From a virus, in the IMG/VR virus record IMGVR_UViG_3300025168_000269, positions 1 to 35,905 of that record: DNA of 35,905 bases. One strand, 5' to 3'. Shown piece by piece: positions 1 through 35,905 of this stretch; the first letter of the stretch is position 1; each line of letters begins with the position of its first letter. The notes under the pieces are model-generated. The model had not been told where the DNA came from. It saw only the letters and a program-made list of their open reading frames with translations, and did not search any database. The position numbers were made by a program, and so were the translations under genes.

Positions 1-1769
1 CCTTCAACTACCTCAATACATGAATTGTTATCTGTGTTAGCTAGAGAGTCCCAATTAAACGCTGACGGATCAATACATCCATAAACAATTGGAATGCAAG
101 AGAAGTCATCTGTGTTAGCCTGGTCGTTGTAATTGAACGCGTCTGGATCTGTGCATCCTAATATAGTTGTAAAACAACCACCATTATCTACGTTAGCTTG
201 AGAGTCGTAGTTGTCAGCGGTAGGATCCATACAACCAAAGTATATACAAGACTCGTCTGCTGTGTTAGCTAAAGCATTATAATTCCAAGCGTAATTATCC
301 ATACACCCAACGGTAACAGCAACACATCCACCACTATCGATGTTGGCAAGGGAATCATAATTGAAAGCTAACTCGTTTGTACATCCAACCACCACATCAA
401 TACAACCCCCGTCGTCTGTATTAGCTAAGCTATCATAGTTCAACGCTAGCTCATCTAAACAACCGTGCACCTTAGGTATACAGTAGTCACCGCAGAAAGG
501 CAACGCATGATATACATGCCAGAAAGGAGGTGCGTATGATTGCAAAGCTCCACCACCATTATCAGCGAAAGGGTATGAACCACCTTGTAAAGTAATATCA
601 CCAACTGAATTTATTAATCTAAACGAGTTGTGCATTGTTTGAAATGCAACTTCTGCAAGAGGAGTTTGTGGGTTAGCTATCTCAAAGTAGTAAACCTTAA
701 CTGGCTTATCTGTTTCTAATACTAGGTTAAACTCTTGAGAGTAAGGACCAGGTCCCATTGTATAAGTACCAAGAATACTATCTTCTTGTACTACACCTAT
801 ATAGCAATCACCCCATCCATCACCACCGTCATCTTCAATAATCAAAGTGTAGTTACAGGTAGGTATTATAGCGTTTAACGTAGCAAGTGAATCGTAGTTA
901 AAAGCGTTTGGGTTCACACACCCTAAAGCGTGTAATGTCTCACAAGTACCATCATCAAGATTAGCTTGTGGACTAAACTCTACATAACTATTATTTGTAC
1001 AACCTTCTACTAAAGGAACATCACATTGCTCTAACCATATAGGACCAGAGTAAGCTGCGTTACCAAAGTTAGCAGAATCTAAAGCCCATAAAGTATCTAA
1101 ACTACCACAAGGCTCTGCGTCACCAAGCACTACTATATTACCATCAGTTCCACCCCACTGTGAGCCAGCCATACCATCTCCGTATATGTCGCTAAGTATT
1201 ATTTCAATTCCAGTCTCAGGTATACATATATCATATATGATAGTTTGATTAGCCTGCTCGTACGTGTACTCACCAGCTACTACGTTATCCACAGCTTGAC
1301 CATTTGATAGGTCAGTTATAATCCAACCAGTCTCACCTGGATATTGATCTAGTGTTAGCTGTAAAATAATTTTGGCCTCTCCGTCGGAACAACTTATTCC
1401 AACACAGCTGCCATCATCTGCTTCTGCCCAAGGGTTATAGTTCGGTGCTTCAGGATCGATGCAACCGAATATAGGATACTCACAACTACCGTCATTAAAG
1501 TTTGCTTCAGGAACAAAGTTTAAAGCTAACAAGTCAGTACAACCAGGTACTGTATCTATAGGTGCTTCGCAATCTCCTTCATCATAATTAAATTCTTCAC
1601 AATCAAAGTAAACTGGTACTCCGTTGTAAGTGTAAGCGCCATCATCACACCACCCATCTCCTAACCAACCCGACACTGCTGTAACATCAGACCCTAAACA
1701 ATCATATAAAGTATCTTGAGCTAGTAAACTATTTGATATTATTAAAATTAATAAAAGTAATTTCTTCAT
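1..1769 (-). CDS. Secreted Cys-rich repeat protein, partial (C-terminus beyond left edge)
   Basis: This reading frame is open through 589 codons to the left edge, so the C-terminus is missing. The product starts with a clear signal peptide (two Lys, a Leu/Ile core, probable cleavage after A17 in SLLA-Q). A segment like a Lin-12/Notch repeat follows at about residues 24-65 (GDGWCDDG, then EGDC). Ten units then follow the pattern GC-D-x(3)-A-x-NY(D/N)-x(3)-A-x(3)-D-x(2)-C. They are interrupted by two beta-type segments with GDG motifs near residues 193 and 312. Such repeats are known from secreted proteins of marine Bacteroidota; their function is poorly defined. The start lies one base after the stop of the preceding gene, so it is probably co-transcribed with the late genes. 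Function is unknown: surface adhesion, envelope modification or a role at lysis are all possible. The gene looks host-derived. Confidence 0.85.
   Translation of the reverse strand, partial: MKKLLLLILIISNSLLAQDTLYDCLGSDVTAVSGWLGDGWCDDGAYTYNGVPVYFDCEEFNYDEGDCEAPIDTVPGCTDLLALNFVPEANFNDGSCEYPIFGCIDPEAPNYNPWAEADDGSCVGISCSDGEAKIILQLTLDQYPGETGWIITDLSNGQAVDNVVAGEYTYEQANQTIIYDICIPETGIEIILSDIYGDGMAGSQWGGTDGNIVVLGDAEPCGSLDTLWALDSANFGNAAYSGPIWLEQCDVPLVEGCTNNSYVEFSPQANLDDGTCETLHALGCVNPNAFNYDSLATLNAIIPTCNYTLIIEDDGGDGWGDCYIGVVQEDSILGTYTMGPGPYSQEFNLVLETDKPVKVYYFEIANPQTPLAEVAFQTMHNSFRLINSVGDITLQGGSYPFADNGGGALQSYAPPFWHVYHALPFCGDYCIPKVHGCLDELALNYDSLANTDDGGCIDVVVGCTNELAFNYDSLANIDSGGCVAVTVGCMDNYAWNYNALANTADESCIYFGCMDPTADNYDSQANVDNGGCFTTILGCTDPDAFNYNDQANTDDFSCIPIVYGCIDPSAFNWDSLANTDNNSCIEVVE
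3..470 (-). repeat. Tandem GCxD...DDGSC-type protein repeats (six units)
   Basis: Six consecutive coding repeats of about 24-26 residues lie in the visible C-terminal part of the secreted protein. The closing cysteine codons start at plus-strand positions 18, 96, 174, 246, 324 and 402, giving spacings of 78, 78, 72, 78 and 78 bases. Each unit opens with GC and closes with C, with NYDSLAN-like cores. Four diverged units lie further right, near 890-1560. The array runs off the left edge. The repeat is conserved at protein level; the DNA copies have diverged. Confidence 0.85.
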
Positions 1770-1770
1770 A

Positions 1771-2067
1771 CTACGATTTTTTATGTTTCCTACAAAAAGC
1801 AGCAGCGGCCTCTCTACTACCAAACCCCCATTTCTTTAAAGCTCTAGCATAAGGAGTTGGTTCTCCTTTTTTATTCTTCATACTTCCCTGCATGCCAGCA
1901 AACCTACAGGCAAAAGAAACTCTACGTGGATTTGTACCACTGGTTTTTCTATCACCTAATGTTTTACCTGTTTCACTCTTATGATCGGCGCGCATTTTTT
2001 TATTACGCTTAGCGTAAGCTGCCTCTGTTATTTTAAGTGGATCTACACTTCTATTATCGTATGCCAT
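1771..2067 (-). CDS. Small basic conserved phage protein
   Basis: This 98-residue protein is very basic throughout. Its C-terminal half carries a compact motif: VSFACRFAGM at about 50-59, a Lys-rich turn, then ALKKWGFGSREAAAAFC at about 76-92. From memory this resembles a small domain of unknown function common in marine phages; I cannot confirm the family name. The charge and the single small domain suggest nucleic-acid or virion association, but this is not shown. The stop codon lies one base before the start of the secreted repeat protein, and the upstream 72-residue gene ends three bases before this start, so it sits inside the late operon. Confidence 0.75.
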   Translation of the reverse strand: MAYDNRSVDPLKITEAAYAKRNKKMRADHKSETGKTLGDRKTSGTNPRRVSFACRFAGMQGSMKNKKGEPTPYARALKKWGFGSREAAAAFCRKHKKS

Positions 2068-2292: not shown

Positions 2293-2505
2293 TTATTTTT
2301 TTGCAAACTTCTCTACGCCTGAGATTCCAAATGAACCAAGCACAACCCAAACAAATGAGTTGTAGACGTATTCGTTTATTATTAAATCACTTCCTACCCA
2401 GCCTGTAACTAAATCAGCTATCATTATAAGGCACATAATAGCAAACGCTATAAATCCTACTATAGCTTTTTCGTTCCAATTGTTATCGTTCTTAAATATT
2501 TCCAT
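2293..2505 (-). CDS. Small two-helix membrane protein, holin candidate
   Basis: A 70-residue protein with a charged N-terminus, a strong hydrophobic segment at about residues 14-37 (rich in Ile, Ala and Met), a second hydrophobic segment at about 46-63 and a short basic tail ending in AKK. Size and topology fit a class II-type holin, which would open the inner membrane at lysis. Its place at the end of the virion genes agrees, but no endolysin is recognisable beside it, so another small membrane protein is possible. The ATG overlaps the preceding gene's stop as TAATG, suggesting translational coupling. Confidence 0.6.
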   Translation of the reverse strand: MEIFKNDNNWNEKAIVGFIAFAIMCLIMIADLVTGWVGSDLIINEYVYNSFVWVVLGSFGISGVEKFAKK

Positions 2506-3270: not shown

Positions 3271-6200
3271 TTACTGATGCGCATAACATCTTTTGTTTTT
3301 ATTCTCTGTTCTATTCTTACATCTACTACCTGATCCAGTGTTCGATTTGCATTGATATTCTTTAATACCATTATTGTTCCTATCACTACCTTGATTAGGT
3401 TTATAAGATCTATGGTATGAACACAAAGCTCTTTTAGTTTTAGATTCAACCATTATACTACACCTGCCACCACTTGATTTAGTACCAGAGCATCTAACTT
3501 GTTTAATACCTTGTTTCTCTTTTTTTTCTTGCTCTTGCTTTTTCTCTTCGTCTTTCTTCTTCTTATCTTCTATCTTCTTGTTATCTTTGTCTATCTTCTT
3601 TTGAGCTTCCTTCTCAGCCTTCTCTTCAGCTTTTTCTCTCTGCCCAATACCAACGTCCCATTTACTCCAACCTAGACCTACTAACACCCTTTGCCAAGCT
3701 TCGTTCTGGTCATCTAAAGCAGCTTGAATATTAGTAATCTTTCTATGAGCTCTATTAACTGGCACGTTAAGTAGACCTTCAGTTAGCATTGTTAAACCTT
3801 CTAAGGCTGGACCATCAAGAGTTAAACCTTCTTTAAGTATTTCTTTCTTATTGAACTTATATGTATTACCAGCTGCATCAAATTTACCAAACTTAGATCC
3901 TATGGTAGGAGATACATTCAGTAAGTCTTCACCAACTTCACTGTAGTCAGCTCCCCAACCCTTGTTGTTCTGTTTTTGAAACTCCAGTATACTATTCTTT
4001 ATACCAGACAGTACAGCTCCAGGTATTCCCATACCTCTTAAGAACGAATCAGCCATAGTGTTTATAGCATATATCTCTTTCTCAGCTTTTAATTCGTCAT
4101 CATCACTATTAGCCATGAGTGCAAATAACCCAGACTGTAACCCAGCGAATATAGCAGATTGTACAAACCCGTAATAGCCTACTTTACTCATCTTGTTAGT
4201 GAAAGAACCATCACCAGCAAATCCTTTATACCTACCGTTCTTAATATCAAGCAACTCCTTCATCATTATTCTATTCATCTGCATAGGAGTATTGGCAAAT
4301 GGTAATACTATTCTACCACCCCAAGAAACTTGTTGTGCAGATAATAGATCTGGTCTAGAAGATTGTTGAGTTCTTTCTGCCACTGCTTGGAAGTCTACAA
4401 AAGCTTTTTTCTCAGCCTCAGCTTTAGACAAACCTTCTTTCATATACTTGTTTATAGCATTACGATAATACGTAGCACCACCAGAAGCTATAGCAAAACT
4501 ATCCGCTATCTTAGTAGGTAAATAACCTGCTTTTAATATCTTAGCTATAACAGCTTTAGAAGGGTTCCTACTTTTAGAAGCAGCTGCAGCAAGTTCAGCT
4601 TCTGTAACGTTTATCTCTAACCCAGCTCTACGTTGCTTTAACATGTCTGAGTTCATGATAGTCATGAAGTCTTTCCAATACTGAGGTTGATTAGCGAAAG
4701 CTTTAGAAGCTGCTAGTGGATTGTTAAACGAATGGTTTACAAAGTTAACTGTAGATAGTAACTGTAGCGTTGCGGATCTAGTATTAAAGTTCATTATAGT
4801 ACCAACACTACCGTTTAGGTAATCCATTATTTTATTACCAGCAGTTCCAAGGTCAGCTCTTCTAGTTTGACCAGTCTCCATTCTTTCAAACATCTCTTCA
4901 AGATTCTTTCTCCAGTTAGAGCCTAACTTAGATTCCATCTTGTTTAAATTCTCTTCAGAGAATATTTCGTTCTTAGCTTCTATCCATTCCGCAAGATGTT
5001 TCTTTCTACTAACACCCTCACCTAAGCCACCGACTTCACTAGCTAGAGTTTCAGCCCACCAACTATTTGATGGTTCTTTTACTTCTAGTATTCTAGAGAA
5101 ATTCTCAGCGTACGCTTGAAGATCAGGGTTGTTTCTAACATGCTCGACTAGCTTCGCCTCTGTGGCTTTAGCTAAGTCAGGTATCTTAATACCATTTTTA
5201 TTCCAGTTATAAATTCGTATAGCCATGTCGTTAGTAAACCCAGTATCTCCAACTTCTTTATCTAAAGACTTAACCGTTTCTTTGTTTTGCTTACGTAACG
5301 ACAAGTATTGATTAGCCGCTTTCTGCTTAGCATTATTAAGATCATTATAACCTCTTTCAAAAGGCTTTATCAAGTTCTCGTTAAACCACTTCTGATTCTC
5401 TATACCTTTCTTACCTTTACCATATAAAGGTTCTAACAATAATTCCATGTCAGCAGCAGAGTCTGTCATAAAGACTCTACGTCTTTTAATATCTGCACCA
5501 CGAACTTTAGCTTCAGCTTTAGAAAATGTTTTCTCAGGAGCTATATCTAAAGAATGTTTCATAACGTCATTAACGCCCTGACTGAGATCTTTAGATGCTA
5601 AAGCTTGTTGTACTTTAGATTTTATATCCAGTTGATCTAAGACCTTCTTAACAGCCTCTACGTTGGGAAGAGCATCATCAACAAAGTACATATCATTATA
5701 ACCTTCAGCAAACTTCTCTAACATCCAAAGAGCTTTAGCCTCACCTTGACTTTTACCTAACCCTGTTATATTTTCTAAAGGTATATCAACACCTTTAGTT
5801 TTAAGCCATTGATGAATAGGTCCAGCAGCGTCTTGCATTCTAGCAGTTAAAACAAAAACATCTTTAGGTCCATGTTTTCCTATTAAGTTTTTCATCTTCT
5901 GAAGCAGTGGTCCTTCTTTACCGCCGCGAACGTTTACAAAATCTGAAAAATCAAATTCAAAACCGCGCTCAGCGTATTTAGGCCCTTCAATAGGCCAATT
6001 ACCACTACTTATTTTAACAGTCTCTTTACCTCTCTTAGCCACAACAAAGTTTTCTCCGTCTACAATAAGTGTTTCGTCAAAATCAAAAGTAGCCATACCT
6101 TGAGTTTTCTTATTCTTTTTTCTACCCAGTGCAAACGCTTTATCTGCGTCACGTATAGCTTTACCTAAGTCCTTAGATGCTAGAGCTTCTTTGTAACCTT

Positions 6201-9200
6201 TAGGGAATAAAGCTTCTCGATACTCTCTAAGTCTTTTTCCAGCCTGCACAGTTTCAACTTGACTAGTGCCTGGCATTTTATCATAAGTTATATCTCTAAC
6301 AAAGTCGTATAGTGGTATATCAAAACCTTTACCAAAAGCATCAGAGTGGTAACGATCTAGTATAATATTAGATCTACCATCAAATAAATTTTCAGGTGGT
6401 AGTGACTCTTGATATATCTCATTTACCATTACATCTAGATTCTCAGGTATTAGAGTAGTGTGATAGTTATCTAAAGCGTTTTTAACCCAATCTTTAAGTT
6501 GAGCTTTTCTAGCGGCCTCTGGACTTTTGGGTTCACCTTTAGGGGTAGTTATATAATCATATATTAAAGTAGCTATTTCTTTAGCTGGAGTTGTATGTTC
6601 TAACACCCATTTTTTACCATACTGTTTTATAAATTCCTTAGGGTTTCCTTTAGGTAGTAGAGCTAAAGATGCACTAGACTTTATTAACCCAGGCATTGAA
6701 GCTGAATGTAATTGAGTGAACGCTCTAACGTGTCCATGGTTTATATCACCCTTCTCGTATGCTTCATTCAGTATGTCTACAACCTCCCTTAAGACATCTT
6801 TATTTTGCTCCCCGAGTTTATACGCTTCCATAGGATCAAGAGACCCATCAACCCACTTCTTTAGCATTACAGCTTTGTTAGTAATATACGGGGATGGTTT
6901 CTTGCCTTCCCACTTTTTCTTCTTAACTTTTTTAGATATTGGTTCACTTACGTTCGCAACATAATCAGCAGCTGTAACAAAGTACGAAGGTCTTGCACTA
7001 CCTGATTCTTTACCAAATATTACATCGTGTAATCCTTTAACTATAACATCCGAACTTTTATATGGACCCAAACCGGAACCAGTTGTTGCTCCTGATTTTA
7101 AGAAAGCCTCAGCAAAACCAGGGCCATACTTAGCGTCTAGTTTTTCAGCTATTAAAAACTCCACTTCTCTACCTTTTATTATACCGGCTTTATTACCAAA
7201 CGGATTACTTAAAGGTTGTAAACCATTTCTAGCTTCAACAGCGGAGTACTCGTTAGACTTTAATATTCTATTACCTACTTTTATAGCTATATTATTAGGC
7301 TTATAACCTTGTAGCTTTAAAGATCCAGATAACTGATTAGCTATATTAGCTAGCAACATGTTTTTAGTTATAGGTTTTCCAGTGCTAGTCTCTAACTTCA
7401 ACCCTATATCCTTGTCTTTAAAGTATTGTCTGAAACTTTCTATAACAGCTTTATCTGTCTTGCCGTAACCACTAATGTTAGCGTTGAATATACTAGCAAA
7501 TTCAGGGGATATAACACCTCTAAAAACTTCTTTCTGAGCATCAATAGACTGTCTACCCAAGTCTTTACTAGCTAACGCTTCAGACTTACCGGCTTGAACT
7601 TGATTCATTAAATTCTCTACAGATGTAGACAACTCAAACTGTGGTGAGTTATTTTTTAAATACTCTCTAGCAACTTGATTAGACCAAGCCTTACCTAATT
7701 GATCTACAGCCGCTTTAACTTTCTGGCTAAGGCTTCTATCATTTTTAAGTTCAATAAAAGTTCCATCAGGTCTTACACCAAAAAATGCTTTAACATCTCT
7801 AGGTGTTATTTTACTGTTTTTAATTTGAATAGGATTACCGGCACCAGTTTTTACTCTAGTACCTTTACTATAGAAAGAGTTTAGTAAAACGTTTTGCACG
7901 CCGGTAGCTGTACCCTTTATAGACTCAGGAGCACCTTCCATTTCTACAGTTCCCTCCGGCAATGCGTCAATAAACAATCTAGCGTTTGAATCTTTACTAA
8001 ACCACTTTTGAGCATTACTAACGCTATTTTTACCTATACCTCCAACCTTAGGCTCTACTCCAAGCAACTCGTTAGTATATTCAGGTACTAAATCTTTTAA
8101 CGTTTTATAAGTAAGTTTTGTAACATCTAAACCAGATAATCTCTCTTCAGCTTTGCTTATAACATCCTCAGGTATGTTAAGATCTCTAACCAGCTCCCTA
8201 CCCTTAGGTCCTTCAGAACCTGATCTACTTAGCTCCGGTGAAGTATCTGCTATCTGTAAAGTCTCAGCGTCAACACCAGCCTCACTCATAGCTATCTCAG
8301 TTGTTCTACCAGCTTGAGCTGCTCTCAATATATTTCCTTGCTGTGAGAAACCAGACTTAGTATGTTTACCACCGAGCGATTGCTTTAAGTAAGCACCAAA
8401 TGGTACCCCTGTTTTAGCGTCGTACCTGTTCATTATCTTAACTACCTGCACCATCGTCTCGGCTTCAAACTCAGACTTGCTAACGTCTAAACCTTTTTTA
8501 AATTCCGAATCTATGAACTTGCTAATAATACCCATATTGTCATTATACAGAGCGTTTTCAGCTCTTGTTCTAGGTACATCACCTGGTTCAAATTTTTGAT
8601 ATACCTCTATATTTTTAGCGTTACGTTCTGACTTCTTTATATTCTCGTTAAGCTTTTTTATTTCTTCAATATTCTTACTAACCTCAGCCTCATACCCTTT
8701 AGGTTTATTCGTTCTTAACGATTCGTTAGTTTGCATCAGAAGTTGCTTCTCTAAAGTCAAATCACGTGAAGCCATCTCAGCTTCGGTAGGTTTTTTACCT
8801 ACATCTAAATATTGATCTAAGTGTTTAAGCTCGGAGATCTTACCTGTGCTACCAAATCTTCCTAACATGTTGACTAATTCACGTTGCGTGAATACATCTA
8901 GTGGTTTACCAAGTAAACTTTTAGACATGTTGTTAAAGAACCCACCTACAGCGGAGTATGCTCTGGAATCTATTAAATGTTGATTCTCCTTCTTACTCAA
9001 GTATTCTGCTGTGTAAGCCCTTAGCTCCATGAACTTTGTAGGATCTTTCATTTCTGATATAGCAGCGTCGCTTAATACAGCGTCGTAAAGATTTGTTTTG
9101 TTACCTCCTTGATTTATTTCTATTCGCTGCATCCTCTTTTTAAGAGCTTCTACATATTGAGTTGCCATTTCAGGTGATCCCTCAAAAAGTATATCTTCAT

Positions 9201-12200
9201 AAGCGTGAAGCATTTCGTGAGATATCGTGCCTCTACCTTTAGCTTTTTTGGTGTTGTAAACTATTTTATAAGGATCTTTAGATGTCTTAGGTTTAGTATA
9301 TAAAGCGTTAACATCTTGATACTTTGTCTCACCATTAGCTGATACGTATTCTTGATATATAGGTTTATCCGTTAACTCGTATTGGAACTCTTTACCTTTA
9401 CTTGCAGCGAATTTCTTTAATTCTCTGTGGTGTTCCTCATATAGCTTCTCCCCCTTAACGGGATCTGTCCATGCTTCAACATCATCAGCTCTATCTAAAT
9501 AGTTCTGTGCAGCGTAGAAATCCTGTTGATAAGTTTGAAAGTCATCTACAAGTTTAGATATTTTAGAACCCTCGCTCTGGCTACTTAACCACTCTTGATA
9601 ATTAGCTACTGTATAGTTTTCTTTTCTAAAATTCTTTATTTTTTTACTTTGCTGTCTGTTAGCATCGGTAACGTGTATACTCTGTCCCTTATATATAATA
9701 CCTTCTTGTTCGGCTTTACTTTGTAGATACTCATCAAAACCTTGTTTGATTTTGTTCTCTGTTCTATCACGTAGAGTTTGTGCTTCTCTCTTAGTTTTAC
9801 CTATAGCTTCATATGTCTGTATGTCCTTAGATTTTAAACCATGCATTCCTAGCATACCACCAAATATCATATGCTCAATACCTCTATGTGCAACTTGGCT
9901 ATAGTCGCTCCAGTTTTCTTTTATAAAAGTATTAAATTCCTCAACACCTCTAAGATCGTTAACCATAGCTTTACCAAGCTCACCCACCTCTGCTGCAATA
10001 GCGAAAGCAGGGGCATTTTTTAATGATAACTCTAAGACGGTGTTCAATTGGTTTCTACTAGTGAGGTTTTTAAAACTCCAAGGGGCTAGCTTAGATCCAA
10101 GTAAAAATGCTGCGCCAGTACCTCTTTCAAATGCTAATTCTCCATCAACACTTAAAGCACCCATACCTTCTCTCATCTTAACATCCTCAGCTAAAGCTAA
10201 CATACCAAGAGCTGAACCTCTCTCCATTTTAGTGGCCTTACTAGCTACAGCAGCTCCACTTCCTATCATTTTCTCTAGGGTAGTACCCTTCTTAGATGCA
10301 AAAGCTACAGCCCTAGCGCTATTCATTCTAGTACCGTTTACAATATACTTAGCGCCCATAAGGTTTCTAGCCATACTAGTCACACCAGCTAAACCCTGAA
10401 CTTTATTACCTATAGTTAAAGCTGGAGCCATTCTAGCAAATCCACCAGCACCTATAACTACATTGTCTAATAAACTTTTTTCCAGATGAGTTCTTTGAGC
10501 TTCGGTTGTAAACAAAGCTTTATTATCTTCATCCACTCCCATACCAGGTAGAATATCTTGATCTACAACATCAAGTAATTGTTGTTGAGTTAAGCCAAAA
10601 GTTTCCTGCGCTACACCTCTTCCTAGAAAATCATCTAACACCTTGCTAGCTTCCCCACCAAACTGACCTAACCTAGTTTTATCTATAGTAGAGTAATCTC
10701 TATTTAAACTGTATACCTGCCACAGCGCTTCTTTTTTAGCTGAAATATCTAAACCTTTCTCCTTCCTGTTCTTTAAGTATTCAACAAACTCATCTGGGTT
10801 GTCATACCTGCCCTCAATATTGTTGACTGGTGATATGTCGTAATCCTCAAACGAGAAGTTTCTTGATAAGGCTCTAGGAGTATGGTTTGTTAAGAAACTA
10901 ACTGGCACATCTTTAAAACCCAACCCACCATCACTTTCAAAACCAGCTTCCTTTAAATGAGCAAACAAGGCTTTATCCCCTACTCTAACATCTATAGTCT
11001 CCTCACCTTCTAAATCAAATCCTTTTTCCTCTAATAAAACTTCAGAGTTATATCTCTCCAATTGACCATAAGGCGTTCCGTCAAACATGGATACATAAGA
11101 CTCGTAGCTAGTAGTTATATCATTCGCTTCTCCACCGGATTGCTGTATTATTTTAGCTTCTTCAGTACCAACAACCTTACCAGTTGCTGGATCCAAATAC
11201 TTAGCATATCCACCACCATGTTTAGGTATTTTTTTACCAGTCTTTTCATATGTACCAAATTTACCGCCCTTCCAAACTAACTCGTCGGTGTAAAATATTT
11301 TATCCACCAACTCGCTTCTTCTCTGTTCCAATAAAGCTGTTGGACCATTAACTCTTATCTGCTTATTTATTCTGGCTAACTCGCCCTCATCACCACCATG
11401 AATATTAATCTCAGCTAATTCTAAATCAAAAGCTAGAGACGCGGTTTCTTGCCCCTCCTCTTCAGCATTTTTAATTGCTCTTTGAATATTACTTTTTTCT
11501 AACTTGTTAGCTTCTAACTCTTGGTATTCACCGAAAGATTGCTGTATAATTTCATCTACATCACCATCACTAACAAACGGGAACGCTTGTCTACCCTCAC
11601 TCTGAAAACCTACAAATGATTTTATCTCTTGTTTTAAATTCTTAATATTAGAATCATCTCTAGAGTAACCAGATAAAGTTTTAGTACCTGTTATATCTTT
11701 TAATACTTCTTTATTTTGAAAAAAGTTTTTGTCGACATATTGTTTTAAATACTTCTTCTGTGTACCAACTATTTTAGACTCTGAAACATCTTCTTCTTCA
11801 TCAGAATAATAGTCTAACTCTGGTCCTAACATAGCTTCCGTTCTCTGTTGGATAGGATCTACCTCTTCAAACTCTTTAGCCCATTCTACTACGTCTTCCG
11901 AAGCTTGTTGCTCATCAAGCATCAACTCTGGTTTACTACTGTAAAAAGTGTTTATATTATCAATCCCACCTTTAGGATCGTAAACAACTTCTGGTAATTG
12001 TACGCCTGTGTTATCCCGTCTAGCTGGTTCTGGTAAATCCGAAGAAATATCTTCCGATGGTAATTCCGTATTCTCTTCTTGATTGTTTTGAGGTTGAACC
12101 ACCTCTTGATTTGATGCTGCAGTCTCTGGCTTCACAGTCGCATCTGCACTGGAGCCTGTTTGATTTCCCGTTACCTCGTCTTCAGGTTTAGGATTCTTTA

Positions 12201-12300
12201 AATTATACTCCTCTATAACAGCTGCTATATTCTCTTCTGGCTCGTTAGCCTCTTGCATTCTAGTTATTATACCTAATATCTCTTCTTTATTGTATGACAT
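3271..12300 (-). CDS. Giant multidomain (polyvalent) virion protein, 3009 residues
   Basis: This 3009-residue protein is of the large polyvalent type found in many marine short-tailed phages, probably packaged and ejected with DNA. Visible in order: a disordered acidic N-terminus (1-130); Ala/Gly-rich hydrophobic stretches (about 600-830); an HEMLH zinc-peptidase motif (1028-1032); a sigma-region-2-like segment (about 1245-1310); a HAD-like domain (about 2065-2215, with D2073, D2075, T2077, T2152 and D2208/D2209); a conserved C-terminal module (about 2450-2750) with hydrophobic helices; a Lys/Glu coiled coil (about 2880-2935); and two Cys3His motifs (2937-2963 and 2984-3008). A short ALASKDL-type motif recurs four times. 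The single long frame shows no breaks. The family attribution is recalled; the enzyme activities are motif-based inference. It lies between an internal-protein gene and small genes and probably has ejection or early host-takeover roles. Confidence 0.85.
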   Translation of the reverse strand: MSYNKEEILGIITRMQEANEPEENIAAVIEEYNLKNPKPEDEVTGNQTGSSADATVKPETAASNQEVVQPQNNQEENTELPSEDISSDLPEPARRDNTGVQLPEVVYDPKGGIDNINTFYSSKPELMLDEQQASEDVVEWAKEFEEVDPIQQRTEAMLGPELDYYSDEEEDVSESKIVGTQKKYLKQYVDKNFFQNKEVLKDITGTKTLSGYSRDDSNIKNLKQEIKSFVGFQSEGRQAFPFVSDGDVDEIIQQSFGEYQELEANKLEKSNIQRAIKNAEEEGQETASLAFDLELAEINIHGGDEGELARINKQIRVNGPTALLEQRRSELVDKIFYTDELVWKGGKFGTYEKTGKKIPKHGGGYAKYLDPATGKVVGTEEAKIIQQSGGEANDITTSYESYVSMFDGTPYGQLERYNSEVLLEEKGFDLEGEETIDVRVGDKALFAHLKEAGFESDGGLGFKDVPVSFLTNHTPRALSRNFSFEDYDISPVNNIEGRYDNPDEFVEYLKNRKEKGLDISAKKEALWQVYSLNRDYSTIDKTRLGQFGGEASKVLDDFLGRGVAQETFGLTQQQLLDVVDQDILPGMGVDEDNKALFTTEAQRTHLEKSLLDNVVIGAGGFARMAPALTIGNKVQGLAGVTSMARNLMGAKYIVNGTRMNSARAVAFASKKGTTLEKMIGSGAAVASKATKMERGSALGMLALAEDVKMREGMGALSVDGELAFERGTGAAFLLGSKLAPWSFKNLTSRNQLNTVLELSLKNAPAFAIAAEVGELGKAMVNDLRGVEEFNTFIKENWSDYSQVAHRGIEHMIFGGMLGMHGLKSKDIQTYEAIGKTKREAQTLRDRTENKIKQGFDEYLQSKAEQEGIIYKGQSIHVTDANRQQSKKIKNFRKENYTVANYQEWLSSQSEGSKISKLVDDFQTYQQDFYAAQNYLDRADDVEAWTDPVKGEKLYEEHHRELKKFAASKGKEFQYELTDKPIYQEYVSANGETKYQDVNALYTKPKTSKDPYKIVYNTKKAKGRGTISHEMLHAYEDILFEGSPEMATQYVEALKKRMQRIEINQGGNKTNLYDAVLSDAAISEMKDPTKFMELRAYTAEYLSKKENQHLIDSRAYSAVGGFFNNMSKSLLGKPLDVFTQRELVNMLGRFGSTGKISELKHLDQYLDVGKKPTEAEMASRDLTLEKQLLMQTNESLRTNKPKGYEAEVSKNIEEIKKLNENIKKSERNAKNIEVYQKFEPGDVPRTRAENALYNDNMGIISKFIDSEFKKGLDVSKSEFEAETMVQVVKIMNRYDAKTGVPFGAYLKQSLGGKHTKSGFSQQGNILRAAQAGRTTEIAMSEAGVDAETLQIADTSPELSRSGSEGPKGRELVRDLNIPEDVISKAEERLSGLDVTKLTYKTLKDLVPEYTNELLGVEPKVGGIGKNSVSNAQKWFSKDSNARLFIDALPEGTVEMEGAPESIKGTATGVQNVLLNSFYSKGTRVKTGAGNPIQIKNSKITPRDVKAFFGVRPDGTFIELKNDRSLSQKVKAAVDQLGKAWSNQVAREYLKNNSPQFELSTSVENLMNQVQAGKSEALASKDLGRQSIDAQKEVFRGVISPEFASIFNANISGYGKTDKAVIESFRQYFKDKDIGLKLETSTGKPITKNMLLANIANQLSGSLKLQGYKPNNIAIKVGNRILKSNEYSAVEARNGLQPLSNPFGNKAGIIKGREVEFLIAEKLDAKYGPGFAEAFLKSGATTGSGLGPYKSSDVIVKGLHDVIFGKESGSARPSYFVTAADYVANVSEPISKKVKKKKWEGKKPSPYITNKAVMLKKWVDGSLDPMEAYKLGEQNKDVLREVVDILNEAYEKGDINHGHVRAFTQLHSASMPGLIKSSASLALLPKGNPKEFIKQYGKKWVLEHTTPAKEIATLIYDYITTPKGEPKSPEAARKAQLKDWVKNALDNYHTTLIPENLDVMVNEIYQESLPPENLFDGRSNIILDRYHSDAFGKGFDIPLYDFVRDITYDKMPGTSQVETVQAGKRLREYREALFPKGYKEALASKDLGKAIRDADKAFALGRKKNKKTQGMATFDFDETLIVDGENFVVAKRGKETVKISSGNWPIEGPKYAERGFEFDFSDFVNVRGGKEGPLLQKMKNLIGKHGPKDVFVLTARMQDAAGPIHQWLKTKGVDIPLENITGLGKSQGEAKALWMLEKFAEGYNDMYFVDDALPNVEAVKKVLDQLDIKSKVQQALASKDLSQGVNDVMKHSLDIAPEKTFSKAEAKVRGADIKRRRVFMTDSAADMELLLEPLYGKGKKGIENQKWFNENLIKPFERGYNDLNNAKQKAANQYLSLRKQNKETVKSLDKEVGDTGFTNDMAIRIYNWNKNGIKIPDLAKATEAKLVEHVRNNPDLQAYAENFSRILEVKEPSNSWWAETLASEVGGLGEGVSRKKHLAEWIEAKNEIFSEENLNKMESKLGSNWRKNLEEMFERMETGQTRRADLGTAGNKIMDYLNGSVGTIMNFNTRSATLQLLSTVNFVNHSFNNPLAASKAFANQPQYWKDFMTIMNSDMLKQRRAGLEINVTEAELAAAASKSRNPSKAVIAKILKAGYLPTKIADSFAIASGGATYYRNAINKYMKEGLSKAEAEKKAFVDFQAVAERTQQSSRPDLLSAQQVSWGGRIVLPFANTPMQMNRIMMKELLDIKNGRYKGFAGDGSFTNKMSKVGYYGFVQSAIFAGLQSGLFALMANSDDDELKAEKEIYAINTMADSFLRGMGIPGAVLSGIKNSILEFQKQNNKGWGADYSEVGEDLLNVSPTIGSKFGKFDAAGNTYKFNKKEILKEGLTLDGPALEGLTMLTEGLLNVPVNRAHRKITNIQAALDDQNEAWQRVLVGLGWSKWDVGIGQREKAEEKAEKEAQKKIDKDNKKIEDKKKKDEEKKQEQEKKEKQGIKQVRCSGTKSSGGRCSIMVESKTKRALCSYHRSYKPNQGSDRNNNGIKEYQCKSNTGSGSRCKNRTENKNKRCYAHQ
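3274..3492 (-). other. Tandem Cys3His motifs at the end of the giant protein
   Basis: The last 73 residues of the 3009-residue protein contain two similar units. Unit 1 is C2937-x9-C2947-x12-C2960-x2-H2963. Unit 2 is C2984-x9-C2994-x10-C3005-x2-H3008. Both have a G-x-RC turn and a C-x2-H end. The spacing resembles small zinc-binding modules seen in Bacteroidota and in viruses. They follow a Lys/Glu-rich helix and end one residue before the stop, so they form a separate C-terminal appendage. Confidence 0.7.
5584..8778 (-). repeat. Four dispersed copies of an (E/Q)-ALASKDL motif in the giant protein
   Basis: The copies are EMASRDL (residues 1175-1181, bases 8758-8778), EALASKDLG (from 1574, bases 7555-7581), EALASKDLG (from 2038, bases 6163-6189) and QALASKDLS (from 2232, bases 5581-5607). 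Each is followed by a short charged helical stretch (such as RQSIDAQ, KAIRDAD or QGVNDVM). The last two bracket the HAD-like domain. Codons differ between copies, so the conservation is at protein level. Confidence 0.8.
5671..6096 (-). other. HAD-like phosphatase domain inside the giant protein
   Basis: Four HAD superfamily motifs appear in order. Motif I is D2073-F-D2075-E-T2077 in TFDFDETL. Motif II is T2152 in VFVLTAR. A lysine lies in GEAKALW (about 2188). Motif IV is D2208-D2209 in YFVDDALPN. The set of catalytic residues looks complete, so a phosphohydrolase activity (substrate unknown) is plausible. A similar domain is, from memory, a recurring module in marine phage polyvalent proteins. 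The ATG at 6096 could serve as an internal start, but nothing shows that it does. Confidence 0.7.
9205..9219 (-). other. HExxH zinc-metallopeptidase motif in the giant protein
   Basis: Residues 1028-1032 read HEMLH within TISHEMLHAYEDILFEG. The preceding hydrophobic strand (KIVYN) and the helical context fit a zincin active-site helix. A third zinc ligand cannot be fixed by eye; the acidic residues shortly downstream are candidates. A five-residue motif can arise by chance in 3009 residues, so this is suggestive only. Confidence 0.5.
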
Positions 12301-19237: not shown

Positions 19238-22200
19238 TTATCCGTTTTCTGTTATTGTTAATTTGAACACGTTAATTATAGGTACGCTAGCTATATCTAT
19301 AACGCCAATACCTTGAACTGAAAATTCTTTAGTATCTAAATTACTCAAACTAGTAGCATCACCTTTAATGTATTCAAACCATTTACCTTCTCTTTCTATA
19401 AACTCAGGTATGCTAGCCTCTTGTAAATTCGTTTTAAACGAACTAACGTGCCAGCCAGCCTTAGTATCACTAGTTAAGTCTTGATAATTAGGGTTGTTAA
19501 TACTTATTTCATTTCCATTAGCGTCCGTAAGATTTTTATTATCCCACCCATCAACTTTAGCTTGAGTACCTTCATAGTTCATAGATAAGAAACTTTTAAT
19601 CACTTCAGGACTTTGATTAAATAAAACGTCCACAGTTGAATTATAATGTTCACCATAAAAATTATTAGCTTCAATATCTAAGGATCCGTCAGTTGATAAA
19701 TCTTCATTGTGATGTGACCATATAATTTTGTTGTTTATATAATCAGTATCGCTCGAGTCATACTTAATCTTACCAGTAAGGTATTCATCATTAATTGACA
19801 GACCAGTTTGAGGTATAAAAGATTTAAAGCTAGTCCACCCTTTGGTTTTCTCGCTAAAAGAAACTGTGGTGTCTCTATAAGTATTTTGTTTATGATTAAG
19901 CGTGAGATTGTATTCACCTTTTATCTCATCAAAACTACCAACCAACCACCGTGTTGGTTCTAAATTATCTCTAAACCAAGAGCTCATACCAGCGTCAGAT
20001 ATAGGTGTTAAACCATCTTGAGATAATCTAATAACTTTATTTCTCTGCTTGTCAGTAAAATACATTCTAATGTAATCAACAGCTAGAGACTCAGGGTTTG
20101 TAGATATACCATAATCACCCTTGAAAGCTTTAGCATCTCCTAGTACTGCATTGGATGCTGTCACGTTAGAACTACCGTCAGCGTTATATAATGCATCTTT
20201 GTTTGCTAATATCTGAAATACCTTATCTTCACAGAAAGCAACAACATTAGTATCTCTAGTTTTTAAAGCTTGAAGGGATCCGTAAGATGGGTTTAAATCC
20301 TTAGTTATAGGTTGAGCCATGTTAAACTCATTAAGGTTATTAACACCACTTGTAGAGTTATATATACCTGACCATATCATGCCACTACCTCTACGTTCCT
20401 CTCCAAATGTATCAAGCGTTGTAGAAACCTTGCAACCGTTATCTATTGTAGGCGCATTGAAATCATCTCTAATTCTATCAGACTCTAAACCGTTTCCAAA
20501 AGCGTAGCAATTAAACCAACTCAAGCCTACCGGTTCTTTAAACACCTCGTGATCTAGTCTATAAAACCCAGTCTCGAATTGGTTGTCTTCACCACTGTAA
20601 TTGTTAGCTGGAAAATAATTTTCAGTATCTGTAATGTTATCGTAGAATTGCCAGTGAGCTATTATACTTGACTGTGTTATAGTTCCATTTGGATGTATAA
20701 ACTCTAACACATCACCAACCAATAAGCCTAAATCCTGTTCAGGCTTACAAATTCCTTGTATCCCAATCATTATAACATCCCTTATTGCGGAGCACACTTG
20801 CACCCTACCAAAACCTGTCATATCAACATTAACACCGTCTCTTGTCACTCTAACATCGCAACCTAGAGGTATAAAAGATTTTATGGTTTCATTTTTTAAC
20901 TGTATTGGTATAGCATCTGTAGCTTCATAATACAAATCCATACCAACGTCATCTTTAGGTTCTGTCTCCCATATAGCATTACCATCCGTTATATTAACAG
21001 CTTCTGATCTATCAAAAAAAGCTTCAACAAACTCTATCATAGAGTGGTTAGTACCATCATGCCTTAAGGAACTTCTAGGATCCCAAATATTAACGTCCAT
21101 ACCTTTCATAGGATCTCCCTTTATGTGGAAGTATGTTTTCATGAGAGTCCTATAACACCAACTTGCAGGTGAACTAGCTTCATCACACTCTTTACAAACT
21201 GTGTTTTGATGAATATGGTAATTCCATCTATTCCAACCCGGCCTATGACCAGATATTTGGTATATAGTTCCAGTAGGATCACCAGAGAATCTAAATATAG
21301 ATCCAGCTTCAGTCATTCTATTATAGAAATCAAGATTGTTTTGATCATTAAAACCGTCTTTACCCATCGTAGCCCATTGTATTGCATTCATGCCCGCTGC
21401 TGGTCCACCTTCCGCGTCGTTGTGTAAGCCTGGATGCCAATTTTCTGGGTTAGGGCTGCCTTGTTCACCTTGCCCTAACGCGTTTGCATCACCATTACCC
21501 CCACTACCACGAGCTTCATCTATAAATGGTGTGTTTATATGAGAAATAGGGTATGTGCCAGAACCTCCAGCGTACCACTCCCAGAACCTACGCACATCAT
21601 CCTTTACGAAGCATTCTCCCATATGCCCTGCATCTGCTCCTGATAGAGCGTTACCAGGGTAGTTATCACAGCCCACTACATTCTGCGTTCCCCAAAACGA
21701 ATTATACCAATTAACAGATGAAGGTGTTCCAGCTGTTGGATTTGATTCTCCTGAATAGTCACCTTGATATTGAGCATTTGATGCAGAAGCGGTATTGGTA
21801 GGGTTGTTTTGGACGTACTTAAATTTTAATTGATAATTAGTATTGTACTTTAAACCATCTTCTGTTATGCTCATGATTTTAGTAGATAAAGTAGCGTCTT
21901 TGTATACTTTAATAAAAAACTTACCGTCAAATTCTGGTCTGTTTTCTACAACAGCATCTTTAATTTCAAACTCCATTTCATCTATTTCTTGAAAACTACT
22001 TAACCCAAAAGAGTCGGTAAAGTTAGCTGAGTCGCCAAGCGGGTCTACTAATGTCACAGTGTGATTGGTATCATTCATTCTGGCTATCTTAACCCAGTTA
22101 GAATATTTCAATGTACCACCTTCAATAGCTCTTAATCTACCCCAGCCAATACCTTTAAATTCTATATTATCAAAATTAGCATCATATAAAGTGTCGTCGA

Positions 22201-32021: not shown

Positions 32022-34424
32022 TTATCTAGGGTCGAACCGCTCTAAACCGAGTCCTCCTCCTACTACATCATTACCTGATGATTCAAACTTTTTAAGTGAT
32101 TCACCCCTTTTAATTGCTTGATTGTTTTGGGCTTTCATATCTTCTCGTTTGTCTTTTCTACTCTCTCTCTTGTCGTCTCGCTTATCTATAGTCTCATTTT
32201 CCATACCACTAAGCTGCATGTTAATTTGGAATTCGTGATCCATTAATTCTCTCTTAACTAAAGCTTCTTGTTTTAAAAACTCTATCTTCATTTGATTTTT
32301 AGCTTGTTCAAGTTGTTGATCTATTTGAGCTTTCTGCTGTGCCTTCTGCATTTCAGCTTGTGCCGAAGCTTGTTGAGCTTCTTGGTTAGCTTTAGACTGC
32401 GCTTGAATATTTTCTTGCTGTATCTTCTGATCTCTCTCTAATTTCTTTTGTCTTCTAATCTTTAACAATTGATTAGCTAACTTAACATTTCTTATTTCTC
32501 TAAGATCAATTGCGTCATCTAAATCAATCAACCCTTGAGATATAGCTTGTTGTATGTTATTCTCAAGCATTTGCTTTTCTTCTTCATCTGGCGTTAACTC
32601 TATAAATATACCGAAATCATATAAATGTAAACCAGACATCTCTTTTAGTGTAGCCACATTATGAGCTCCTATAGATTGTATAAAAGCTTCCTTAGTAGGT
32701 GAATACTCTATAATATCAGATATTCTAAGAGATAAAGCTTCAGCTGACTCGGATACTAATAGCATCATTGATTGTAGTACGTGTCTAGTTGCTGTATTTG
32801 AATTAGCGGCTGCCATTTTTTGAATACCAACTAAAGAATTTTTATCTGGAGTTGAAGCGTCTCTAGCTTCGTTTAACCCGGTAACATCTCTAATCATTTG
32901 TAAGTAATAGTTATACGTCTGTATTAACGCTTGCAACTTATTACCACCTGCTCCGTTTTGTATTTGTTGTATAGGTATTTTACCCGGGTTCTGACCACCT
33001 TCAGAAGTAAACGATCTACCAATAACAGAACCTGTTTGGAAGAACATATTTAAAGCTTCTTGAGGATTGTAATTAGTACCGTTACCTAAATCTATTTCAG
33101 CTAATCCATCAGCATCTAAATATACACCATCAGGAACCATGCGAGATAACACTTGTTGCAACTTCAAGTGTGTCAACTGTATCATGTCGGCAAAACCAGT
33201 GATTCTACTAACCACAGACTCTATTTTACCTTGATACATTCTAGGTGCTACTATACTATAGTTCATTTTAACTTTATCAAAGTTAGACTTAGTACGCATC
33301 ATGTTTTTAGCCATCTCCCATTTAAGTAGCTTGTCAGTACCTAGTATTAACACACCTTCATACAAGCACTCCATTACTCTTTCAAGTTTCATAAAGTTTC
33401 CTTCCATATCGGCAGGAGGATTAAAAGTATCATCCTTCTCTATCACTCTCTCAGCACCAGTACTTAATTCTTTTACTTTATAAGTATTGTTCTTGTGAGT
33501 TTTAAAATTGAAATATAAAACATCTACTTTATTTCTGTCTCTATTGTAATGATTGCTATTATTACCTTGATAGCTTTTCATAGAAGATCTAGGTCCTTCT
33601 ACTAAATCTTTAATATCTTCTTCTGTAAGTTCTGGAAATTGTTTTACTAATTCATTTATAGGTACTTCTTTAACTTCCCCCACATAATATATATCATCAA
33701 AGTAAGGCGACTCAGTGTAAGAGTAAACTAAATTAGCTGGATCTACATACTCAACTTTAGCACCATCACTCCAGTCAAATGTAGTTTTAACAGCCCCAAT
33801 ACCTATAGTAGTTAAATCATACAAACATCTTCGCTTAGTTAACTCAAACTTACTACCTTCCATTAGAACGTTTATAGCCTGCTCTTCAGCTAATTCCACA
33901 GCTTGCTTGTAATCCAACTGCATGTGAAGTGCTAATTCTTCTTCAGTGTCAGGTAAATCTTCCTTCTTGTTTTCATAAAGATTCATACCAAACTGTTGTT
34001 GCACCATGTCATTATACTCCTTAGTACGCATGTCACGCAGTATTGACTCCATATGCTTAGTTCTTTTACTAACACCGTATGAATCTTGTGAGTATGCTTT
34101 AACTTCATAAGTTCTTTGAGCCATACCATTAACCACTATATCGACAAACTTAGGCACAATTGGCACTGGTTTCCAATCTAAGTTTAAGTAGCTTAAGTCA
34201 CCATTTATAGATAACTCATTTTTATACTTCTGTATAGGCTGTTCACCCCGTGCGTATAGTCTTAGTTTGTGAAAATTGTTTTTAGTATTTAAATACTTTG
34301 AAGTATCATTACTAAACCACTCGTGCTCTATCGCTCTAGCTACTTTCAACCCATACTCTTGACTCATCTTCTCTAGATCGCTTACTGCTTGAGAAGGAAA
34401 ATTATTTATCGCAGACTCTGCCAT
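32022..34424 (-). CDS. Portal protein
   Basis: An 800-residue protein directly after the terminase large subunit. It has the helical and loop phrases of a portal: NNFHKLRLYARGEQPIQKYK near the N-terminus, VPIVPKFVDIVVNGM, and a region around DVTGLNEARDASTPDKNSLVGIQK that includes the conserved clip-to-stem portion. The C-terminal third is a very long Gln/Lys/Glu-rich helix (about 640-770), consistent with a portal barrel or crown extending into the capsid. Length is close to that of crAss-like and marine podovirus portals. It forms the dodecameric DNA channel at the capsid vertex and binds terminase. It starts three bases after the terminase stop codon. Confidence 0.9.
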   Translation of the reverse strand: MAESAINNFPSQAVSDLEKMSQEYGLKVARAIEHEWFSNDTSKYLNTKNNFHKLRLYARGEQPIQKYKNELSINGDLSYLNLDWKPVPIVPKFVDIVVNGMAQRTYEVKAYSQDSYGVSKRTKHMESILRDMRTKEYNDMVQQQFGMNLYENKKEDLPDTEEELALHMQLDYKQAVELAEEQAINVLMEGSKFELTKRRCLYDLTTIGIGAVKTTFDWSDGAKVEYVDPANLVYSYTESPYFDDIYYVGEVKEVPINELVKQFPELTEEDIKDLVEGPRSSMKSYQGNNSNHYNRDRNKVDVLYFNFKTHKNNTYKVKELSTGAERVIEKDDTFNPPADMEGNFMKLERVMECLYEGVLILGTDKLLKWEMAKNMMRTKSNFDKVKMNYSIVAPRMYQGKIESVVSRITGFADMIQLTHLKLQQVLSRMVPDGVYLDADGLAEIDLGNGTNYNPQEALNMFFQTGSVIGRSFTSEGGQNPGKIPIQQIQNGAGGNKLQALIQTYNYYLQMIRDVTGLNEARDASTPDKNSLVGIQKMAAANSNTATRHVLQSMMLLVSESAEALSLRISDIIEYSPTKEAFIQSIGAHNVATLKEMSGLHLYDFGIFIELTPDEEEKQMLENNIQQAISQGLIDLDDAIDLREIRNVKLANQLLKIRRQKKLERDQKIQQENIQAQSKANQEAQQASAQAEMQKAQQKAQIDQQLEQAKNQMKIEFLKQEALVKRELMDHEFQINMQLSGMENETIDKRDDKRESRKDKREDMKAQNNQAIKRGESLKKFESSGNDVVGGGLGLERFDPR

Positions 34425-34427
34425 AAT

Positions 34428-35905
34428 CTATTTCTTTATTATTGTTGAATTAAAACCTGTATTTTTATATTTGGATATTGTAAGGTTAAGTGGTTCTTTT
34501 TTGTATTCCGGGTTTGGCTTGTACATATGCCTGTTGCAAGCCATCACAGCTAAGCCAGTACTAATGGAAGCATCGTGTTTGGTTCTTTTAGTTATGTCAA
34601 ATCTACTCCAATCGTTTAACGTCTCGTTAAAATACATAGTACCGTAAGTACCATCTTGAAGCAAACCTACATGATCGTTAATGTACATTTCTATTGCTGC
34701 TGCGTGAGCCTGTTTTATATCTTCACTAGAGTTTGGTATACCACCAACTTCTTTTTCAGCTACAGATAATTTATTCCATATCTTGTCAGGGCGGTTCATA
34801 CTAAAACCTCTGTAACCTCTTCTACGCAGATAGTACAACAACCTTGGTTTATTATTTTCTGCTAATATAGGCATACCGTAAAACACTAACGCCATTAGTA
34901 CATCTTCAAAAAATATTTCAGCGGTCTGTGGTCTAGCTATATATTCTAAGAAAAATGTATTAGCTGGAGCATCTTCCATGCTAAATTTGCTTAAGCCATG
35001 TAAAGCACCTTTAGAACCTTTACCATCCACGGTTCCACTAATATCATAGCTATCACAACCAAACGCACCTATGTGCTCGTTGCCAGGATACTTTACGCCA
35101 TTTTTTAGTATAACATTGTTTTGTAAATTCCTACCCGGCACCCAACTAACTTTGAATCTACCGCTTGGATCTGGATTAAAAACCACTTGCGTGTCTTTTA
35201 CTCCATTTACCCACTGAAAATTTCCAGTAGTTAATACTGAGGAGTTTCTATTACCCTCGTTGTAATCAATTTGTTCGTATATCTTTACTAGATTAAATAA
35301 AGAGTTTTTTGTCTCATCTCTGAATGCGTGTTCTTCTGATCTAGGGAATTGTCTATAAAACTCGTTTAAAGCATCTTGATCTCCTTTTAAGCCATCAACT
35401 TCATTCTCCCAGTAATCTACTACACCTATATCTATTAATTCACCATGAGGTCCTCGCCTTGCATCACTTGGTGTATCAAATACTGGAAGTCCGTACTGGT
35501 CAATAAATCCTTCATAGTTCCACTCCATTGGGACAAACAAAGAATATAGACCAGATTTTGTCTGGCCATTTCTATTTCGCTTTGTAACATCTGAGTCATA
35601 AAACAATTTTTTAAAGTTATCACCACCCTTGTCTAGAGCGTTTGATGTTGACCCCATCATACACTTACCTACTATTCTACCACCTAACCTTAAACAAGTT
35701 TTTGTAACTCTCCAGTTGTGAAGTATATTGTCAGGTCTTTCCCACTTACCACTTTCATCATGTACTAGCAGGGAAAGCTTTTCACCATCATAACTGTTGT
35801 CACCAGTGTTCTTCCAGTCAATAGTTGTATCAAGGCCTTCCATATCATCTTGCTCTTCATGAAGCCCCATTTTTCTACGGGTAAACTTCTTAGCTGGTAC
35901 ACGGT
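34428..35905 (-). CDS. terL: Terminase large subunit, partial (N-terminus beyond right edge)
   Basis: The frame stays open to the right edge, so the N-terminal part of the ATPase, including Walker A, is missing; an in-frame ATG at 35870 is internal. A Walker B-like strand LSLLVHDE ends at bases 35754-35759, and a coupling motif GKCMMGSTSN follows. The C-terminal RNase H-like nuclease shows AFGCDSYDISGT (first catalytic Asp near 35052) and TKHDASISTGLAVMA (last Asp near 34572). Terminase drives DNA into the prohead and cuts concatemers. The portal gene follows after three bases. The phrase order is close to that of terminases I recall from short-tailed marine phages. Confidence 0.9.
   Translation of the reverse strand, partial: RVPAKKFTRRKMGLHEEQDDMEGLDTTIDWKNTGDNSYDGEKLSLLVHDESGKWERPDNILHNWRVTKTCLRLGGRIVGKCMMGSTSNALDKGGDNFKKLFYDSDVTKRNRNGQTKSGLYSLFVPMEWNYEGFIDQYGLPVFDTPSDARRGPHGELIDIGVVDYWENEVDGLKGDQDALNEFYRQFPRSEEHAFRDETKNSLFNLVKIYEQIDYNEGNRNSSVLTTGNFQWVNGVKDTQVVFNPDPSGRFKVSWVPGRNLQNNVILKNGVKYPGNEHIGAFGCDSYDISGTVDGKGSKGALHGLSKFSMEDAPANTFFLEYIARPQTAEIFFEDVLMALVFYGMPILAENNKPRLLYYLRRRGYRGFSMNRPDKIWNKLSVAEKEVGGIPNSSEDIKQAHAAAIEMYINDHVGLLQDGTYGTMYFNETLNDWSRFDITKRTKHDASISTGLAVMACNRHMYKPNPEYKKEPLNLTISKYKNTGFNSTIIKK

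Follow-up and report, generated by a model that had tools for sequence, protein, structure and literature searches.

A cassette of four genes, which appears from its distribution to be restricted to phages and carried by uncultured marine viruses of Bacteroidota, encodes a repeat protein that is very probably exported by the type IX secretion system (T9SS) of the host. We refer to this protein as the cargo. The other members are a predicted outer-membrane barrel, a 94-aa transmembrane (TM)/coiled-coil protein and a secreted thioredoxin fold, and neighbor clustering showed the same genes accompanying the cargo across different phage backgrounds. Sequence evidence establishes the phage location, the signal peptide, the sorting tail in relatives, the cassette itself and the selection acting on it.

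The window and its cargo gene

The window, that is, the whole stretch of DNA analyzed, is a 35,905-bp IMG/VR-type virus record. Its terminase large subunit marks it as the record of a tailed phage, and the terminase (TerL), the portal and several virion proteins were clear in PHROGs searches (Table 1). Annotated relatives of the portal and of a 479-aa virion protein, at most 51% identical, come mostly from flavobacterial phages (Elemovirus, Callevirus of the Pervagoviridae, Pachyviridae and Maribacter phage Panino), so the host was very likely a flavobacterium. A crAss-like identity was dropped, as the portal relatives are Pervagoviridae, Pachyviridae and Elemovirus. The phage origin and late-operon position proposed in the first-pass annotation were both supported. 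The window also contains a 3009-aa open reading frame (3271-12300) that had no PHROG match and has relatives in several cassette phages. Of the cassette region itself, the window covers no more than the larger part of the cargo gene together with the 70-aa and DUF6321 genes.

Table 1. Features of the window that bear on the cargo gene and on phage identity
Feature	Position	Strand	Basis
Terminase large subunit, C-terminal part	34428..35870	-	phrog_6681, 5e-113
Portal protein	32022..34424	-	phrog_6547, 8.5e-144
70-aa membrane protein, candidate holin, conserved cassette neighbor	2293..2505	-	65-100% identical in loci carrying it
98-aa DUF6321 protein just upstream of cargo gene	1771..2067	-	PF19846, 4e-08
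Putative T9SS cargo gene, 5' 589 codons	3..1769	-	ORF and relatives; C-terminal ~160 codons with sorting domain expected beyond contig
Signal peptide, residues 1-17, predicted cleavage before Gln18	1719..1769	-	Sequence; pattern in 38/38 relatives
GDGWCDDG...DEGDC segment, residues 37-67	1569..1661	-	Sequence
GC...SC repeats 1-2	1404..1544	-	Strict-pattern count
First GDG-loop beta segment (bounds approximate)	1020..1400	-	Model strands
GC...C blocks 3-4	855..1004	-	Sequence
Second GDG-loop beta segment (bounds approximate)	480..857	-	Model strands
GC...C repeats 5-10, array runs on past contig end	3..464	-	Repeat count; relatives

The cargo reading frame opens with an ATG at 1769 on the minus strand, one base past the stop of the 98-aa gene, as first reported, and is still open at the contig end. 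Many independent contigs have the 70-aa TM gene and basic genes of the DUF6321 type ahead of the cargo gene, which makes a misjoin at 1769-1771 unlikely, in agreement with the earlier judgment that a recent assembly artifact is improbable. The protein begins with MKKLLLLILIISNSLLA and continues, past the predicted cleavage site, with QDT; its hydrophobic region and cleavage pattern, with Gln at +1, fit the signal peptide that had been proposed. By eye, the fragment contains ten GC...C blocks, and two beta segments, each with a GDG loop, break up the series, which is the composition originally described; seven blocks meet a strict pattern versus a mean of 0.14 in 200 shuffles.

Pfam returned no family for the cargo fragment even at an E value of ≤1, Notch included, and PHROGs returned no match. 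The label "LNR-like," under which the GDGWCDDG...DEGDC segment had been read as a Notch repeat, thus describes a resemblance of motif only, and homology is unsupported by Pfam. Nor was there support for assigning these repeats to surface proteins of the host and not to virions. The same GCTDPxAxNY repeats occur at the C terminus of a 3017-aa protein (L043:1968-11018) that is a homologue of the 1874-aa virion protein of the window (19238-24862) and has neither a signal peptide nor a sorting tail; they also match a protein of Synechococcus phage S-CAM3 annotated as "virion structural protein." Judging from the L043 homologue, the repeat module is common to virion and secreted proteins.

Sorting tail, signal peptide and cassette partners

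Scanning IMG/VR with the cargo yielded 42 loci with relatives, the best of them 93% identical; one of the 42, L043, matches solely through the repeats on its different protein. With later finds counted in, the complete relatives range from about 650 to 1340 aa. The length of the repeat array and the N-terminal domains vary, and the tail is constant. Por_Secre_tail (PF18962) was detected with Pfam in 29 of 29 aligned relatives, and the NCBIfam model TIGR04183 scored above its curated cutoff in all six relatives tested. The same model exceeded its cutoff in 28 of 28 cassette-bearing virus records searched, with exactly one match in 26. Record G024 has a second match near its end, and record G032 (IMGVR_UViG_3300030098_004828; 245,646 bp) has two cassettes (L056 and L059) 119 kb apart and is probably a head-to-tail dimer assembly, not a jumbo phage.

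The modeled tail of the L005 cargo is a seven-strand sandwich that matches solved tails of T9SS substrates, with NucA (8glk_D) first (TMt, 0.79) and RemA (8gl6_D) and mirolase (8qb1) among the further matches. By these profile and model matches, the cargo of complete relatives carries a T9SS type A sorting domain. The first-pass annotation had suggested that the phage would be using the export route of its host if the missing C terminus held such a domain, and the relatives bear out that conjecture. As the tail-coding part of the window copy lies beyond the contig end, we infer its tail from the 93% identical L023 and from synteny. In 38 of 38 relatives with a complete N terminus, a short signal peptide precedes a Gln at the predicted +1 position, all signal peptides here being called by pattern search rather than by a trained predictor. 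Gln at +1 after signal peptide cleavage is the Q-rule of the Bacteroidetes (PMC5837995).

In loci reaching 5 kb to either side, and taking best-scoring matches, all four cassette genes were present in 31 of 31 loci found through the barrel and 34 of 34 found through the thioredoxin-like protein. In the pooled set of 55 loci, the cassette genes always lie on one strand, and the cargo and barrel genes overlap by 4 nt at the median. The order was cargo-barrel-TM-thioredoxin in 37 loci, TM-thioredoxin-cargo-barrel in 13 and barrel-TM-thioredoxin-cargo in 4; since the order varies while the set persists, the genes evidently stay together through rearrangement. In the nearest relatives of the window, the other three genes lie downstream of the cargo gene. 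Except for the sorting domain and a weak match to thioredoxins, none of the four families corresponds to a Pfam or PHROGs family.

The barrel protein (∼354 aa, with a signal peptide) is a predicted outer-membrane beta-barrel. Its low-confidence model (mean pLDDT, 62) has 12 predicted strands and resembles the 12-stranded barrels KdgM, NanC, EstA and NalP (Z of about 15), and the last residue is F, L, Y or I in 104 of 107 sequences. It did not match Pfam PorP_SprF at an E value of ≤1, and hhalign of 107 barrels against 11 PorP proteins gave a probability of 6%, indicating no recognizable sequence relation to this family. Two divergent barrels (L210:1501-3248 and L211:240-2729) adjoin a 230- to 252-aa secreted, Cys-containing protein that ends in YNINGQAIKE..GLYIE(N/D)GKI; TIGR04183 gave no match there, and this ending could be a reduced sorting tail.

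In alignment, the 94-aa protein opens with a TM segment, after which comes a charged stretch resembling a coiled coil. This is an i-spanin-like topology; no PHROG spanin match was seen. The thioredoxin-like protein (∼111 aa, with a signal peptide) matches thioredoxins by profile at 1e-8. The CxxC by which a redox thioredoxin would be recognized occurs in 0 of 131 sequences, most of which have NxxN in its place, and the cis-Pro is kept in all 131. Near the cassettes of L095, L102, L110, L112 and L114 there is a second, shorter thioredoxin-like reading frame (81 to 82 aa).

Distribution, selection and precedents

At least 520 IMG/VR stretches encode the barrel, and at least 564 encode the thioredoxin-like protein. 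In GTDB (one genome per species; 84,980 species), the barrel was found in five contigs (L044 to L048), all from metagenome bins; because four hold more of the cassette and one is labeled as an archaeon (Nitrosopelagicus), these are probably mis-binned phage. Only 1 of 395 host-phylum genomes searched had the barrel, and that one was the query's own center. The tail and barrel were absent from the phage records Panino, phi14:2, elemoE, ctfjg026, Calle_1, phi13:2, Gundel_1, phi38:1 and crAss001, eight of these nine being cultured or single-isolate Bacteroidota phages, in a part of the search that had no internal positive control.

Searching 50,697 phage records with tblastn and blastn yielded nothing for the window fragment, the barrel or a short L102 DNA stretch; the matches were to the repeat region only, in cyanophage S-CAM3 and marine virus AG-345-P14. 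A weak divergent-barrel match in Psychrobacter phage D'Alembert was rejected as it sits on an unrelated short gene. No T9SS tail was seen among 20 TerL relatives, all of them fragments; in those with a visible barrel, the cargo is cut by the contig end or possibly lies beyond it. Values of dN/dS of 0.05 to 0.17 for the cargo and 0.04 to 0.16 for the barrel point to strong purifying selection, suggesting that the genes are kept for function.

Several known systems share parts of this arrangement. In sprB-sprF, a T9SS cargo gene is followed by the gene for a dedicated PorP/SprF outer-membrane barrel, and PorP/SprF partners serve type B tails. The cassette likewise places a barrel gene after a cargo gene, but its tail is type A and its barrel shows no relation to PorP/SprF at the sequence level. 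Among phage-encoded outer-membrane proteins, T5 Llp and the PA-2 Lc porin change receptor availability; compared by description only, they involve neither T9SS nor a four-part cassette. Phage spanins include an inner-membrane TM plus coiled-coil protein encoded near the holin and endolysin, which the 94-aa protein resembles; however, no o-spanin-like lipoprotein partner was seen at the cassette loci, and the outer-membrane partner would be the barrel.

Three reports concern phage proteins with export signals. Cryophage carries three variable accessory genes (endoglucanase, GH39 and PA14) with T9SS type A sorting domains; this was called a unique occurrence, and the host system was proposed to serve their products (Bellas et al. 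2020, PMC7468147). The domains are of the type seen in the cargo; unlike Cryophage, each cassette phage genome has a single conserved repeat protein, whose barrel, TM/coiled-coil and thioredoxin-like partners are constant. An excerpted account of gut phages places genes for T9SS sorting domains beside BACON genes, upstream of phage head genes (PMC6949934). These too are phage-encoded sorting domains near virion genes, but they go with BACON domains, and the excerpt describes no barrel/thioredoxin cassette. Porphyromonas gingivalis phages encode proteins without annotated function that share the Bacteroidota Q-rule signal peptide, in a paper that mentions neither T9SS nor a sorting domain (PMC10367356). 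In a literature search whose scope lay outside bioRxiv and most subscription journals, we found no account of a conserved T9SS cargo whose constant partners are a barrel, a TM/coiled-coil protein and a CxxC-less thioredoxin-like protein. Phage T9SS tails have been reported on two earlier occasions (PMC7468147 and PMC6949934), though not in this cassette, and there is a real chance that the cassette is new.

Possible roles at the host envelope

Addressed to the host T9SS, the cargo should end up outside the infected cell. It would be made from the virion operon, a position that suggests late expression, and would cross the inner membrane by Sec. Removal of the signal peptide would expose the Gln, which is expected to become pyroglutamate, and the C-terminal type A tail would hand the protein to the T9SS for delivery to the cell surface. 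The four cassette proteins probably act as one unit, which would span the envelope from the 94-aa TM/coiled-coil protein in the inner membrane, through a periplasmic thioredoxin fold devoid of redox cysteines, to the outer-membrane barrel and the surface cargo. T9SS export and joint action at the envelope are, taken together, also likely. More tentatively, and arguing from location and logic, we suggest that the surface may be remodeled late in infection so that receptors are masked, which would guard against superinfection or keep progeny from being lost to spent cells. We favor masking since what T9SS most obviously adds to plain Sec export is placement beyond the outer membrane.

The main rival, by virtue of the neighboring lysis genes and the i-spanin-like partner, is that the cassette performs the outer-membrane step of lysis after holin and endolysin have acted, the TM/coiled-coil protein forming the inner-membrane spanin part and the barrel and surface protein the outer part. 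A holin-type gene (the 70-aa TM gene or GTA_holin_3TM) lies near the cassette in 53 of 55 pooled loci, and an M15 endolysin in 17 of 55 and in 22 of the 34 loci found through the thioredoxin-like protein. However, the expected lipoprotein is missing from view, many large phages have the cassette with no M15 endolysin in reach, and lysis has no obvious need for T9SS to place a repeat protein of 750 to 1300 aa outside the cell. We regard this role as possible, if somewhat less likely than masking. The Cys-rich array of variable length, the variable N-terminal domains and the constant tail would also suit a surface adhesin by which infected cells aggregate or attach to particles, so that progeny reach new hosts, with the partners aiding folding and display; this leaves the constant inner-membrane partner unexplained, and we think it improbable.

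That the cargo is an ordinary virion fiber or decoration protein is very unlikely. It shares an operon with virion genes, and its repeats recur on the L043 homologue and the S-CAM3 protein, but a signal peptide obeying the Q-rule and a T9SS tail, each found in every relative in which it was assessed (38/38 and 29/29), would be useless in a virion assembled in the cytoplasm. Hardly any credence attaches to a recently captured host passenger gene or an erroneously joined host contig. Bacteroidota do often encode T9SS tails and repeats of this kind (one MAG had 42 tail matches), yet the same cassette recurs in dozens of independent viral contigs, is under strong purifying selection and is almost absent from host genomes.

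A more novel form of our proposal, which we advance with reserve, is that a four-part trans-envelope apparatus, undescribed before and constant in hundreds of marine Bacteroidota phage contigs, plugs into the host T9SS, sets a phage protein on the cell surface and is required either to release progeny or to guard the infected cell. The T9SS is a speciality of the Bacteroidota, which are major polymer degraders in the ocean. If the cassette is T9SS dependent, a widespread phage module would take over the surface-export line of the host, beyond replication and lysis. The cassette points to four co-inherited gene families largely outside Pfam and PHROGs and opens to experiment the poorly known ways in which phages of Bacteroidota protect or break through the outer membrane.
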